Assembly: GCA_024274695.1 (NCBI GenBank)
Contig: JAJSAI010000025.1
Location: forward strand, 1 to 45,488
Source of the DNA: an archaeon
GTDB taxonomy: Archaea > B1Sed10-29 > JAJSAI01
Direction: 5' to 3'
Length of the DNA: 45,488 bases
The notes under the pieces were generated by a model, which was given only the letters and a program-made list of their open reading frames with translations, ran no database searches and was not told the origin of the DNA. Shown here one piece after another: positions 6,758 to 12,438 of the stretch (positions are counted from its first letter, which is position 1; the number at the start of each line of letters is the position of its first letter). The translations under genes were made by a program, and so were the position numbers.

Positions 6758-8060
6758 GTTCCTGTCCCTCCAGCAGTCTTTTCACGCCTGCCGTGAGGCT
6801 TGCAAGGGCTTCCCTTTGAGCGACAGGGTTTTTCTTGTCTTTTACGGCCTCCCAAGCTGATTCCCCAAGTAGGTTGGGTATGCTCATCCCAAGCTCTTCC
6901 GCAGCCTCTTGTATTGCTTTGTATGTCTCGGAATCGTGCTTGAAGTAGCATGCGATCTTCTCGTACCTGTGCGCGTGGGCTTCCAGGAATTTTTTAACCC
7001 TCTCTTTAGTGACCTTAATGTACTCCTCCTTTATTTCAGGGGTCTCCTCCCACTCAGGCCAGTCGTATGAGTTGAAGGGATAGTAGTCCGAGAACTCTAT
7101 GGGCACCACTCCAGGTGTTGATACTACCACCCTGTGTATGTCGCGCAGGTGCCCTGTCCTCTTGAGCGCCTGGAATATTTTTTGGTGGGTCTGGCTTTTC
7201 GGGTAGGGTTTTCGGTACGAGCACGGGAGGAATAATAACAGTTTTTTGGGCTTTGGCTCGTAGAACCTCTGAAAGTAGTCCTGCCATACTTCAAAGTGAG
7301 GGTGCCTGAGGGACTGGGACGTGGCCCCCACTATCTTTTCTCTTTTTTCAGGAGGGAACTTTGGAACGAACAGGTAATTCTGGAAGTCAACTTCTACCTT
7401 GGGGTTGGACTCCCACTTTTCCACCCATTCCTTGAACTGTTTCTTGTCAAGGGGACTCCATTCTCCCCTGATCCACATGTCAAACAGGGGGGCCTTAGAA
7501 TGAGGAAACGTGTTTATTGCGACGACTTCGTCGGAGTGCTCCAGTGCGAACTCCATTGTCCGGTCAAAGTCTTCTCTTGTCCCAAAGGGTATGTTAACCA
7601 TGACGTACGTTCTGATCCTCGCGCCGAAGTCCCTGAGGACTTTGACCGCTTTCAGGTAATCCCGGACCGTGAATCCTTTCGCGTACTTTTTGAGGATCTC
7701 GTCATTTGCTGACTCCAGGCCTATGGCTACTGTGAGTTTGAGTCCCTTGAAGGGCTCCAGCGCCTCAGGGGTTATGAACTCTGGCCTGGACTCTATCACT
7801 AATTCTTTTACTCCTTTTTCCTTGAGGTATTCCGCGAGCCACTTTCTAAACTCCGGGGAGAACTGGTTGTCGTCAAGCAGTGATCCTGACGCGAAGATCT
7901 TGAGCTTGTCAACCCCTGACAGGTTCCTCTTTTTTATGATTTCTTTCGCTTCTTCCTCAGTGTACTTTCCCTGGATTCTTCCCCAGCCGCAGGCGTAGCA
8001 CTTCCCCCAACTGCACTTTCCAACGCTGAGTATCAGTGTTTCTGTCCTCATGTTTTTCAC
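6741..8060 (-). CDS. RaSEA-like radical SAM protein fused to ArcS core (DUF5591) domain
   Basis: Residues 1-~265 form a radical SAM domain with an unusual cluster motif C16-x4-C21-x2-C24 (KCSWGKCYACGWG), as in archaeosine-biosynthesis radical SAM proteins (RaSEA, TIGR01210 type), followed by GLESANDEIL and MVNIPFG strands. Residues ~270-425 match the DUF5591 core of archaeosine synthase ArcS: LPCSYRKPY (278-286), S289-x2-H292 and STPGVVPIEFSDYYPFNSYD. In known archaea ArcS attaches lysine to preQ0 at tRNA G15 and RaSEA cleaves that adduct to archaeosine, as two proteins. Here both catalytic units sit in one chain and the TGT-like and PUA parts of ArcS are absent. The ATG overlaps the ksgA stop as ATGA. 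Domain calls are from remembered motifs. Confidence 0.8.
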   Translation of the reverse strand: MKNMRTETLILSVGKCSWGKCYACGWGRIQGKYTEEEAKEIIKKRNLSGVDKLKIFASGSLLDDNQFSPEFRKWLAEYLKEKGVKELVIESRPEFITPEALEPFKGLKLTVAIGLESANDEILKKYAKGFTVRDYLKAVKVLRDFGARIRTYVMVNIPFGTREDFDRTMEFALEHSDEVVAINTFPHSKAPLFDMWIRGEWSPLDKKQFKEWVEKWESNPKVEVDFQNYLFVPKFPPEKREKIVGATSQSLRHPHFEVWQDYFQRFYEPKPKKLLLFLPCSYRKPYPKSQTHQKIFQALKRTGHLRDIHRVVVSTPGVVPIEFSDYYPFNSYDWPEWEETPEIKEEYIKVTKERVKKFLEAHAHRYEKIACYFKHDSETYKAIQEAAEELGMSIPNLLGESAWEAVKDKKNPVAQREALASLTAGVKRLLEGQELGKET

Positions 8061-8815
8061 GATATCCGGTTGTAGACTCCCTTCAGCTCAAGAGGAGAGA
8101 GGCTTCGCACTTTTCTCTCGTCAGCTAATTCTTTTCCGTAAAGGTCTTGAACGACCCTCCCAATGTTTTTGTTGGGGTGCCTGAAGACCTGCTTGACGAA
8201 TTCTTCAAAGCCCTTGTCCTTTGCAATATCCTTCTTTTTGAGGATCACCACCGCCGCGTCCACCTTCGGCATAGGGTGGAACGCGCCTCTTGGCACGGTT
8301 TCCTTTATTCTGCCCTCGTAGTAGTACTGGGTTATGACCGAAACATGCCCGTAGCCAGGCCACCCTGGATCGGCGAGCAGTTTTTCCGCGAACTCCTTCT
8401 GGAACGTGAGCACGGCGAGGTCAGGGGCCTCCTGGACTATTTTCATTATGATGTCAGAGGATGAGGAGAAGGGAATGTTTGAAACGGTCTTGTTGTACTC
8501 TGGCACCTGTGTTTTCAGGTAGTCCTGGAACACGAACGTGATGTTGTTGTATTCTGAGAGCTCTGACGTGAGAAGTTTTTCCAGTCTCCTGTCTTTCTCA
8601 ACCGCTATTACCCTGCCCGCCCTCTTGGCAAGTTCTTTCGTGAGAAATCCGGGGCCCGGGCCGATTTCTAGCACGGTGTCTTCTCTGGTTATTTCAGCGT
8701 ATCTTACCATTCTTTCTATGATGCCGAAGTCTATCATGAAGTACTGGTCGAGCGCGTGGGATTGTCTGAAGTGGTACTTGGCGCAGAGTTTTAGCAGTTG
8801 TGGGCGAAGGTTCAT
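8057..8815 (-). CDS. ksgA: 16S rRNA N6,N6-dimethyladenosine transferase KsgA/Dim1
   Basis: The enzyme dimethylates two adjacent adenosines in the 3'-terminal hairpin of 16S rRNA late in small-subunit assembly. It has the family opening (HFRQSHALDQYFMID in place of the usual KKxLGQxFL), motif I VLEIGPGPGFLT, VIAVEKDRRL, and the substrate-binding motif NIPFSSSS where most members have NLPYxIS. FHPMPKVDAAVV is typical. The 252-residue length is normal. It starts 1 base after the DUF655 gene and overlaps the next gene by 4 bases. DUF655-KsgA-RpoF-eL21 linkage is a conserved archaeal cluster. Confidence 0.95.
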   Translation of the reverse strand: MNLRPQLLKLCAKYHFRQSHALDQYFMIDFGIIERMVRYAEITREDTVLEIGPGPGFLTKELAKRAGRVIAVEKDRRLEKLLTSELSEYNNITFVFQDYLKTQVPEYNKTVSNIPFSSSSDIIMKIVQEAPDLAVLTFQKEFAEKLLADPGWPGYGHVSVITQYYYEGRIKETVPRGAFHPMPKVDAAVVILKKKDIAKDKGFEEFVKQVFRHPNKNIGRVVQDLYGKELADERKVRSLSPLELKGVYNRIS

Positions 8816-8816
8816 T

Positions 8817-9404
8817 CTACCGCCTGAAGTGCCTTCTCTCGGTGCGCTCTCTGTACGGCCGGGTGAACAGGTAGTACTTTTCGTTTCCCTTCAGTTCTTC
8901 TATTATTCTTTCTACTATCATCTTTTTAGGGTCAGGGAGGAGGGGGACTCTCTCCGCCAGGTCCTTGAAGCTTTCAAAAGGCTTTTTCTCCCTCTGGGCC
9001 AGGATGTCCCACATGTGTTTTTTACCTATTCCTGGGAGGAGTTCCAGGGAATGCTGGCGTACTGTGATGCTTCCTGCCTTGTTGAAAAAGTTCACGAAAT
9101 AGTCTTCTTTTTCTTGGACAAGTTTTTCCAGCGTGTCCTTGAGTTCCTTCTGGGCGAGGTTCGTCAGCTTGTCGTACTTTATCCTGCCTTTTATGAACAG
9201 GACCTTGTCCCTTTTCTCCGGGCCTATGTACACTTTTTCTCCCGGGCTCACCTTAGCCTCTTTTTTTATTATAAGTTCTAAGAGGGTGAAGTGGTCAGTG
9301 CCTATAGCCTGGGCTATCGGTTCCTTCTTAAAACTGCCTGGATATCCTGCGGGAAGATAGTCCAGCACTATGGCGTATTCTTCCTTCAACGCTAACACCT
9401 TCAC
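8817..9404 (-). CDS. DUF655 nucleic-acid-binding protein
   Basis: An archaeal DUF655 protein of 195 residues. The N-terminal half is a small beta-barrel-like unit (EYAIVLDYLPAGYPG, then KVYIGPEKRDKVLFIKGRI). The second half contains a helix-hairpin-helix (LELLPGIGKKHMWDIL) and ends in a basic RERTERRHFRR tail. It is thought to bind RNA; no reaction is known. The GTG start at 9404 overlaps the rpoF stop by 4 bases (GTGA). Its fixed position next to ksgA and rpoF in many archaea suggests a role in ribosome production. Confidence 0.9.
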   Translation of the reverse strand: MKVLALKEEYAIVLDYLPAGYPGSFKKEPIAQAIGTDHFTLLELIIKKEAKVSPGEKVYIGPEKRDKVLFIKGRIKYDKLTNLAQKELKDTLEKLVQEKEDYFVNFFNKAGSITVRQHSLELLPGIGKKHMWDILAQREKKPFESFKDLAERVPLLPDPKKMIVERIIEELKGNEKYYLFTRPYRERTERRHFRR

Positions 9405-9718
9405 AGTTTTGAGAGTATTTCAAGGATTTTGTCAACGTTTTCTATTTTTCTTTTCTCAAACATTGCCTGAACCTGCTCGGGTATCTCAGGTTTCACGTTG
9501 ACAAGGTATACTGCTTCTTCTTCAGTGAAGCCGAGTTCCATGAGCTCTTTCTTCGCTTTTTCTGTCTTGGTCGGTGCGGCCGCAAACTTGTTCAGGTAAG
9601 TGTACGTGACCTTTTGCTCGTACGTCTGCTCTTCTCTCTCCTTCTTTTCAGCGGCTATTATCTCCTTTGCTTCCGCGAGTGTGAGGGGCTTTTCCGAGAT
9701 TATTCTTTTCCCTATCAT
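9401..9718 (-). CDS. rpoF: RNA polymerase subunit Rpo4/RpoF
   Basis: This is the archaeal Rpb4 homologue, which with Rpo7 forms the stalk of RNA polymerase. The 105-residue protein has the typical start (KRIISEKPLTLAEAKEII), a helical linker (TYEQKVTYTYLNKFA) and the closing HRDC-like part (ELGFTEEEAVYLVNVKPEIP...VDKILEIL). Translation is coupled to DUF655 by the GTGA overlap. The 46-base gap from eL21 carries a Shine-Dalgarno-like GGTGA before the ATG. Confidence 0.95.
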   Translation of the reverse strand: MIGKRIISEKPLTLAEAKEIIAAEKKEREEQTYEQKVTYTYLNKFAAAPTKTEKAKKELMELGFTEEEAVYLVNVKPEIPEQVQAMFEKRKIENVDKILEILSKL

Positions 9719-9764: not shown

Positions 9765-10064
9765 TTAGGTTTCCTGTTTCTGCAGGTGTACCGGGTGCAC
9801 GATTATGTTCTTCCTGGCGTTCATGTCCCTTACTCTAACGATGTAGCAGGCCCCCTGCACTCCCACGACTTCTCCAGTGCGGCCGTGGAATCTTCTGTGC
9901 GGGAGTCCAGAGTGCACGCTGGGCTCTGGCTTTATGTGCACCCTGTCCCCTATTTCAAAGGATTTCAAGAAAGAGTTAACATTAGGCATGCCCCTTTCTC
10001 TGGGCGATTTGGACATTTTGCCCCTTGTCTTTGACCTAGGGCCTTTGTGCTTGTACTTGACCAT
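9765..10064 (-). CDS. rpl21e: ribosomal protein eL21
   Basis: Large-subunit protein eL21 of 99 residues with the family signatures KHKGPRSKTRGKM, FEIGDRVHIKPEPSVHSGLP and RRFHGRTGEVVGVQG. It is the first gene of an eight-gene minus-strand operon running to 5369. The palindromic A/T box at 10108-10115 lies 44-51 bases upstream, giving a short leader with a GAGGGCGAT Shine-Dalgarno site just before the ATG. Confidence 0.97.
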   Translation of the reverse strand: MVKYKHKGPRSKTRGKMSKSPRERGMPNVNSFLKSFEIGDRVHIKPEPSVHSGLPHRRFHGRTGEVVGVQGACYIVRVRDMNARKNIIVHPVHLQKQET

Positions 10065-10467: not shown

Positions 10468-10494
10468 TTTATAAACTTTATAAAGGTATATAAA
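10468..10494 (+). promoter_or_regulatory. three stacked TATA boxes upstream of the TBP-like gene
   Basis: TTTATAAA at 10468-10475, TTTATAAA at 10477-10484 and TATATAAA at 10487-10494 are spaced 9 and 10 bases apart, about one helical turn each. The ATG of the TBP-like gene is at 10525 with GGGAGGT at 10511-10517. One box would suffice for a promoter, so the array may allow side-by-side binding of TBP-family proteins. That function is inference. Confidence 0.75.
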
Positions 10495-10524
10495 GAGTGG
10501 ATCAAGTAAAGGGAGGTTTTTCTA

Positions 10525-10869
10525 ATGCCTGCTAAGAAAACCGCGAGAACTTCTAAAACGAGCAAAAAGCCTGCCAAGAGAACAACCAAAAAGGGCAGGA
10601 AGAAAATAGAGTACCGGATTGAGAACATTGTGGCCTCAGCAAGCCTTAACGTGGAACTGGACCTGTACGCGATAGCAAGGGAAGTCCCGAACGTGGAGTA
10701 CGAGCCGGAACAGTTCCCAGGAGCTATACTCAAGCTAAAAGAACCGAGAATAACCCTGCTGTTGTTCAAGAACGGCAAGCTAATATGCGCTGGGGCGAAG
10801 AGCGAGAAGCAAGTAGAGGAAGCAATTCAGACCGCGTACAACATGGTAAAGCACTGCGTCAAGAAGTAG
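10525..10869 (+). CDS. single-repeat (half-size) TATA-binding protein homologue
   Basis: TBP recognises the TATA box and nucleates archaeal transcription initiation. Normal TBP is ~180 residues made of two similar repeats forming a saddle. This protein has 114 residues: a basic tail (1-28, MPAKKTARTSKTSKKPAKRT...) and one TBP repeat (29-111). The repeat is well conserved: IENIVASASLNVELDLYAIA, EYEPEQFPGAILKLKEP, ITLLLFKNGKLICAGAKSE. Both phenylalanines expected to kink DNA are present (F64 in QFPG, F81 in LLLFKNG). No second repeat follows in any frame; a convergent gene overlaps its last 11 bases. A homodimer would rebuild the saddle. Whether a full-length TBP exists elsewhere in the genome cannot be seen. 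Confidence 0.88.
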   Translation: MPAKKTARTSKTSKKPAKRTTKKGRKKIEYRIENIVASASLNVELDLYAIAREVPNVEYEPEQFPGAILKLKEPRITLLLFKNGKLICAGAKSEKQVEEAIQTAYNMVKHCVKK

Positions 10870-11592: not shown

Positions 11593-12438
11593 CTAGTATA
11601 AAACCTTTTGCATGCGCTTCCTCGCCTCTTCTTCAGAGAACGCCGAAAGGGGCACGAACACAGGGAACCCTTTCCCGAAGTACTCAAAGGAGTCCCTAAT
11701 TTTTTCCTTGGTCTGCGGGACCACCACCGCAAGCGCGTTCTCCTCTTCTGCCGCTTGGAACAGGCCTGACTGCACGTGCTTCAGCCCCTTACCTGAGGAC
11801 CACTCTTCAAGAACAGCGGGGTTAGCGGAGCCCACGAGCACGGTCTCGACCCCCCTGCGCATTATCATCCACGCGGCGAACAGCCCGAGATCATCATCGG
11901 CCAGCGCAACAGCCCTTCCCCCTGCAGTCCCGTACGGCAGGCCCCCGGGCCCCTTCAGCGTACGGGTGAAGACGTACGCCTTGCCCTTGAATATTTCCAC
12001 GTTCACCTGCTGTTCTGGGTTCTTGAGCCTGACCTTCAGCCCCAGCCTCTTGACTATCTCGGCCCCTACCCTCTCGTTCACCTGCTGGGATGTTAGGGGG
12101 AAGGCTTTGTCAAGCCTCTGGGTCCTGACCGCGAAGGTCTTTCCTGGCTCGCACGCCCTGACAGCCGCCTCTGTTATCTCGTCCAACTCCGCGTCCACTT
12201 CCTTCGCGGGAGAAAAGGATGACACCCCGAAAACCTTGGACAGCTTTTCCAGGGCCTCTTGCACGTTTCCCCTGACCACTATCCTCCAGTACTTGTTGCT
12301 CACCTTGTGCCCGGGAAGCACCCTCTGGATGTTGGAAGTCAGGATCTTGATGAACTGGCTCCTGACGGGCTCTGCCTTCGTGTAAATCTCAGCGTGCCTG
12401 ACTATCACAACATCCAGCGAGAAGGTTTCTGGGACCAT
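11593..12438 (-). CDS. THUMP protein, ThiI N-terminal half with degenerate PP-loop remnant
   Basis: Residues 1-~165 match the N-terminal ferredoxin-like plus THUMP region of tRNA 4-thiouridine synthase ThiI (VVIVRHAEIYTKAEPVRSQF, then KTFAVRTQRLDKAFPLTSQQ and ERVGAEIVKRLGLKVRLKNP). The ThiI junction GGLPYGTAG follows. Where ThiI has the PP-loop SGGIDSPVA, this protein reads ALADDDLGLFA, so the ATP pyrophosphatase site is lost, though MIMRRGVETVLV keeps the family pattern. The true start is ATG 12438; TATA-like ATATAAAA at 12461-12468 is 23-30 bases upstream. The frame stays open much further upstream but there it is antisense to PAN. A separate catalytic PP-loop protein is at 40672-41286. Confidence 0.85.
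   Translation of the reverse strand: MVPETFSLDVVIVRHAEIYTKAEPVRSQFIKILTSNIQRVLPGHKVSNKYWRIVVRGNVQEALEKLSKVFGVSSFSPAKEVDAELDEITEAAVRACEPGKTFAVRTQRLDKAFPLTSQQVNERVGAEIVKRLGLKVRLKNPEQQVNVEIFKGKAYVFTRTLKGPGGLPYGTAGGRAVALADDDLGLFAAWMIMRRGVETVLVGSANPAVLEEWSSGKGLKHVQSGLFQAAEEENALAVVVPQTKEKIRDSFEYFGKGFPVFVPLSAFSEEEARKRMQKVLY

Follow-up and report, generated by a model that had tools for sequence, protein, structure and literature searches.

The TATA-binding protein (TBP) is treated as universally two-lobed and asymmetric, the product of a single ancient duplication. Brindefalk's 2013 paper on the TBP-domain superfamily reportedly mentions single-TBP-domain proteins of some archaea in its abstract, and it is presumably reference 37 of a later paper. 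That later paper notes single-lobe TBP proteins in some archaea, consistent with its reference 37 (PMC7221094), so the single-lobe form itself is not new. Elsewhere, separate first-repeat and second-repeat clades across 34 species were taken to satisfy the criterion for a single duplication (PMC4910066). RNase HIII and DNA glycosylases also contain TBP-like domains; like the protein described here these have one copy of the fold, but they are parts of enzymes and remote in sequence, with Foldseek reaching the glycosylases only at E ~0.2. Surveys of DPANN record the presence of TBP without remarking on it, and literature searches, which covered few subscription papers, found no functional study of a single-lobe TBP in DPANN.

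The window analyzed here is a 45,488-nucleotide stretch from an archaeal genome (G000; 825-kb assembly, 91% complete, 0.25% contamination). Its TBP gene is confirmed as real, conserved and single-lobed (Table 1). The open reading frame is intact and, as read directly, begins with ATG behind a GGAGG-like ribosome site. A sequence-only reading had described the product as a basic tail followed by one conserved TBP repeat instead of two, and both points were borne out. The N-terminal tail is lysine-rich, and the Pfam TBP model matches in one stretch at residues 30-110 (101.7 bits, E 2e-29, curated cut-off 22.9 bits), which removes the failure in profile searches that had been named as grounds for dropping the claim. 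Both intercalating phenylalanines, F64 and F81, are present and are invariant in an alignment of relatives, while all PDB sequence matches of the 114-residue protein are TBPs. E60 and E62 align with the YEPE motif of the canonical C lobe and are conserved at 98-100% in single lobes; their counterparts are the C-lobe glutamates that contact TFB (PMC7221094). In the AF2 model most of the lobe reaches a pLDDT of ~90-93 and the tail is disordered, and a Foldseek search with the lobe retrieves single TBP lobes at an rmsd of ~1 Å. Canonical archaeal and eukaryotic TBPs (PF00352; 1mp9, 1pcz, 2z8u) share with it the lobe fold, both phenylalanines, the EPEQFPG stirrup and the TFB-contacting glutamates, in a genome with TFB and TATA/BRE promoters. 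They differ in carrying two tandem lobes per chain rather than one, in having N- and C-type lobes where this lobe is neither, and in reading FPGLV and FSSGK where it reads FPGAI and FKNGK. No remnant of a second lobe was found downstream in any frame by six-frame Pfam and profile searches; as the earlier reading had noted, a convergent gene is found there instead, its span beginning within the 3′ end of the TBP gene.

Table 1. Features at and around the single-lobe TBP gene, in coordinates of the window.
Feature	Coordinates	Strand	Details and basis
KsgA-type rRNA dimethyltransferase, conserved neighbor	8057..8815	-	tblastn synteny; type presumed from family knowledge of the sequence
DUF655 protein, conserved neighbor	8817..9404	-	Pfam PF04919; synteny
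RNA polymerase subunit Rpo4 (RpoF), conserved neighbor	9401..9718	-	Pfam PF03874; synteny
Ribosomal protein L21e, conserved divergent neighbor	9765..10064	-	Pfam PF01157; synteny
TATA-like boxes TTTATAAA, TTTATAAA, TATATAAA upstream of the TBP gene	10468..10494	+	Read directly; fit the genome-wide TTTWWAWA box
Probable ribosome-binding site aagggaggt	10508..10516	+	Read directly
Single-lobe TBP gene	10525..10869	+	114 aa; basic tail 1-28, TBP lobe 30-110; Pfam PF00352 2e-29
Convergent ORF, 237 aa	10859..11572	-	Follows the TBP gene also in G001, G003 and the doubles G004 and G005
ThiI-like THUMP protein	11593..12438	-	Pfam PF02926, PF22025; follows in G004 too

A six-frame, stop-read-through Pfam search of the whole 825-kb assembly finds TBP at this gene alone, and N-lobe, C-lobe and mixed-lobe profiles found no other TBP lobe in 671 kb of the same genome, the next best match having an E-value of at least 0.15. 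In most of the relatives examined, whether their TBP is single or double, the L21e-Rpo4-DUF655-KsgA block, complete or as a subset, is divergent upstream of the TBP gene. The 237-residue convergent ORF, which has no Pfam match but is conserved beside TBP in several genomes of the order, lies downstream of both kinds. Because the neighbors match around singles and doubles, it is at an orthologous gene that lobe number shifts. In two relatives (G002, G006) the TBP and TFB genes are 3 kb apart.

Single-lobe TBP is the rule in the phylum of the window genome and common in Micrarchaeota. The phylum sample comprised 19 genomes of one class of Diapherotrites-type DPANN, all of which were searched. 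TBP lobes were detected in 17 of the 19; none was found in G010 or G018. Eight genomes have one single-lobe gene (G000, G001, G002, G003, G006, G015, G016, G017), counting as one the gene of G003, which is split by a contig break with overlapping ends. Another six have separate single-lobe genes: G008, G009, G013 and G014 each have an A gene at the conserved locus plus a B gene at another site, and G011 and G012 have three genes. The remaining genome, G007, shows only TBP gene starts, at contig ends. Two of its contigs (C36 and C7; L047, L057) end in an identical 121-bp stretch that spans the first ~30 codons of a TBP lobe, and their upstream sequences differ; they may represent two copies of the TBP gene whose 5′ ends are nearly identical, or a fork in the assembly. 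A search for a standard TBP in the genome and its relatives, proposed in the sequence-only reading, returned none in the window genome, and within the phylum fused two-lobe TBPs of standard type occur only in G004 and G005, which belong to the same order as the window genome. Among 196 Micrarchaeota genomes, many families are single-lobed and others double, and family f16 mostly has two matches, apparently to single-lobe genes. Exactly one lobe match is found in 24 Micrarchaeota genomes at least 90% complete, including G116, a single contig with a 140-aa frame, and G134, which is 100% complete. The 'monopartite' archaeal TBPs already reported are likewise stand-alone single TBP domains in an archaeon; here, the single lobe is the sole TBP of its genome, the rule across a phylum and encoded at a locus orthologous to that of two-lobe TBPs. 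Such a lineage-wide replacement, together with recent re-fusion, appears undescribed in the papers searched, few of them from subscription journals.

The two-lobe TBPs of Micrarchaeota and of G004 and G005 occupy the same locus and belong to the same lobe clade (99-100% support) as the window protein, but their two lobes are fused. Within these proteins the lobes are 48-81% identical, against 36-58% in canonical TBPs. In G004 identity is 79% at both the protein and the DNA level, with an identical run of 98 nt; in G005 the values are 81% and 85%, with a run of 78 nt. The two lobes of G005 pair in the tree (97/90). The AU test rejects a clade uniting the first lobes of G004 and G005 (p 0.01) but not one uniting their second lobes (p 0.21). 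These comparisons suggest that both doubles arose by recent internal re-duplication or conversion, with gene conversion within an older double as the alternative to fresh duplication. A Micrarchaeota double with lobes 79% identical is predicted to form a TBP saddle (pLDDT 94, TM 0.86-0.87 to 1mp9); according to this model, near-identical lobes of the Diapherotrites/Micrarchaeota clade could make a saddle when linked.

The window lobe also resists classification as an N or C lobe. Its profile scores are near-equal (N 104.6, C 102.5), giving a log-odds of +2.2, compared with ranges of 34 to 100 in canonical N lobes and -98 to -33 in canonical C lobes, a spread flattered by profiles trained on those canonical lobes themselves. 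In a tree of 181 lobes, the canonical N and canonical C lobes each lie on one side of a branch, all Diapherotrites/Micrarchaeota lobes lie past a 99% branch, and the window lobe falls with neither N nor C. A smaller, more careful tree, which is unrooted, recovers the Diapherotrites/Micrarchaeota clade at 100/99 and canonical C at 100/96. Nesting with the N or C lobes of DPANN costs 3-13 log-likelihood units, with AU p-values of 0.21-0.43 over 85 alignment columns. The proposal that a homodimer would recreate the presumed pre-duplication ancestor of TBP stands for the functional analog; as history it is left with a distinct clade outside canonical C and an N or C origin that is not rejected over the 85 columns. 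An unspecialized lobe would fit service in both positions of a dimer and would equally fit a pre-duplication lobe. It is rather unlikely that the Diapherotrites/Micrarchaeota single-lobe TBP is a surviving pre-duplication form that never passed through the N/C duplication common to all other archaea and to eukaryotes, with two-lobe TBPs re-arising several times in that group.

The promoters of the window genome have the signals expected of a TBP-TFB system. A TTTWWAWA box peaks 30 bases ahead of starts in ~41% of intergenic upstream windows (motif LLR 136.5, compared with 26.4 when shuffled), with A-enrichment 3-5 nt upstream of the box, as expected of a BRE. Both halves of the 8-bp box are conserved. 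The ratio of symmetric to free fit, a measure of TATA palindromy considered as a possible sign of a symmetric dimer, is 0.89 in the window genome, 0.93 in G116 and 0.75-0.80 in two canonical genomes, but a canonical pool has the same value, 0.89, as the window genome. One TFB gene is present. This gene has an in-frame TAA within its second cyclin repeat (L149:1846-1848; G000:C29 about 9592-9594), past which TFB homology carries on in frame, so that the stop may be an error or real; a search of the rest of the class showed no interruption in the TFB genes that it found.

A sole TBP, the presence of TFB, TATA/BRE promoters and a phylum-wide distribution support the suggestion that the gene encodes the general TBP of the cell. 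We infer, with a probability of roughly 80%, that it is the cell's only and general TBP and that two lobes associate as a symmetric homodimer recreating the saddle. A homodimer is the simplest answer because the full 8-bp box needs two lobes, both supplied by a single gene. Each lobe would intercalate both of its phenylalanines in one half-site of the TATA box, and the dimer would bend the DNA. With the TFB-contacting glutamates on both halves, it would offer TFB two equal sites, which would leave direction to the BRE, an element established to orient TBP-TFB (PMC7289017). Dimerization, bending and an essential role are all probable properties of the single-lobe TBP. The lineage retains an unspecialized lobe; sister families have it either as two separate genes, with possible heterodimers, or as a re-duplicated and fused two-lobe TBP.

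The best-surviving alternative, though unlikely, is a heterodimer of the window lobe with a second, divergent single-lobe protein whose gene falls in the missing 9% of the genome. Sister genomes with A and B genes (G008, G009, G013, G014) or with three genes (G011, G012), and the separate clade of the B lobes (100/99), are consistent with such pairing. However, no B-type gene is present in G000, G001, G002, G003, G006 or G015; from the completeness figures, the chance that G000-G003 and G006 all miss one is roughly 1e-4, and one-contig Micrarchaeota genomes with a single gene exist. A monomer occupying half of a TATA site, with TFB supplying the rest, is very unlikely: the stand-alone lobe folds alone in the AF2 model and single TBP-like domains of RNase HIII bind nucleic acid (PMC4132731, PMC7221094), but the promoter box is a full 8 bp with both halves conserved, and the presence of fused doubles at the orthologous locus implies that the working unit has two lobes. 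Also very unlikely is the role of TATA competitor or auxiliary factor beside an unassembled standard TBP, which the sequence-only reading had also entertained. A second TBP could be absent from the assembly because the genome is 91% complete; this role is nevertheless disfavored because a standard TBP is missing from the window genome and most relatives, no canonical-type TBP occurs among the 19 phylum genomes besides the re-fused same-locus forms and two divergent membrane or lipoprotein forms, and one-lobe-only Micrarchaeota reach 100% completeness. An artefact of assembly or of a frameshift, or a pseudogene whose second lobe has been lost, has negligible probability and is refuted as far as sequence goes: the TAA in the TFB gene indicates that point errors or decay occur in this genome, but no lobe remnant lies downstream in any frame, the convergent neighbor starts at once, and independent assemblies of relatives carry a single-lobe gene at the same locus.

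Whole lineages relying on one lobe, together with re-fused near-identical doubles, break the rule of a single duplication. Single-lobe lineages with a few re-fused copies offer a living model for the origin of the two-part TBP. Because members of a single order differ in lobe number at the same locus, natural proteins, in place of reconstructed ones, allow tests of how a symmetric dimer becomes a fused TBP and of what lobe asymmetry contributes to promoter direction.

Other TBP-fold proteins were encountered in these genomes. The two divergent forms are a 726-aa ORF of G005 (C8; L150:1464-3641, +) and a lipoprotein-like ORF of G012 (C1; L151:1288-1941, +). The former has four divergent TBP lobes (Pfam TBP 9.7e-72, in four stretches), then a transmembrane segment, and ends in a long C-terminal part; it is predicted from its sequence to be a membrane-anchored TBP-like protein. 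The latter joins a LAGC lipobox signal to two divergent TBP lobes (Pfam 6.4e-19) and is predicted to be an exported or lipid-anchored TBP-fold protein. A canonical, Nitrosopumilus-like two-lobe TBP in a Micrarchaeota bin (G164:C43; L141) is likely contamination, possibly transfer. The B-type single-lobe TBPs of G013 (L054) and G012 (L060) have long lysine-rich N-terminal tails, to which the basic tail of the window protein is similar, though much shorter.
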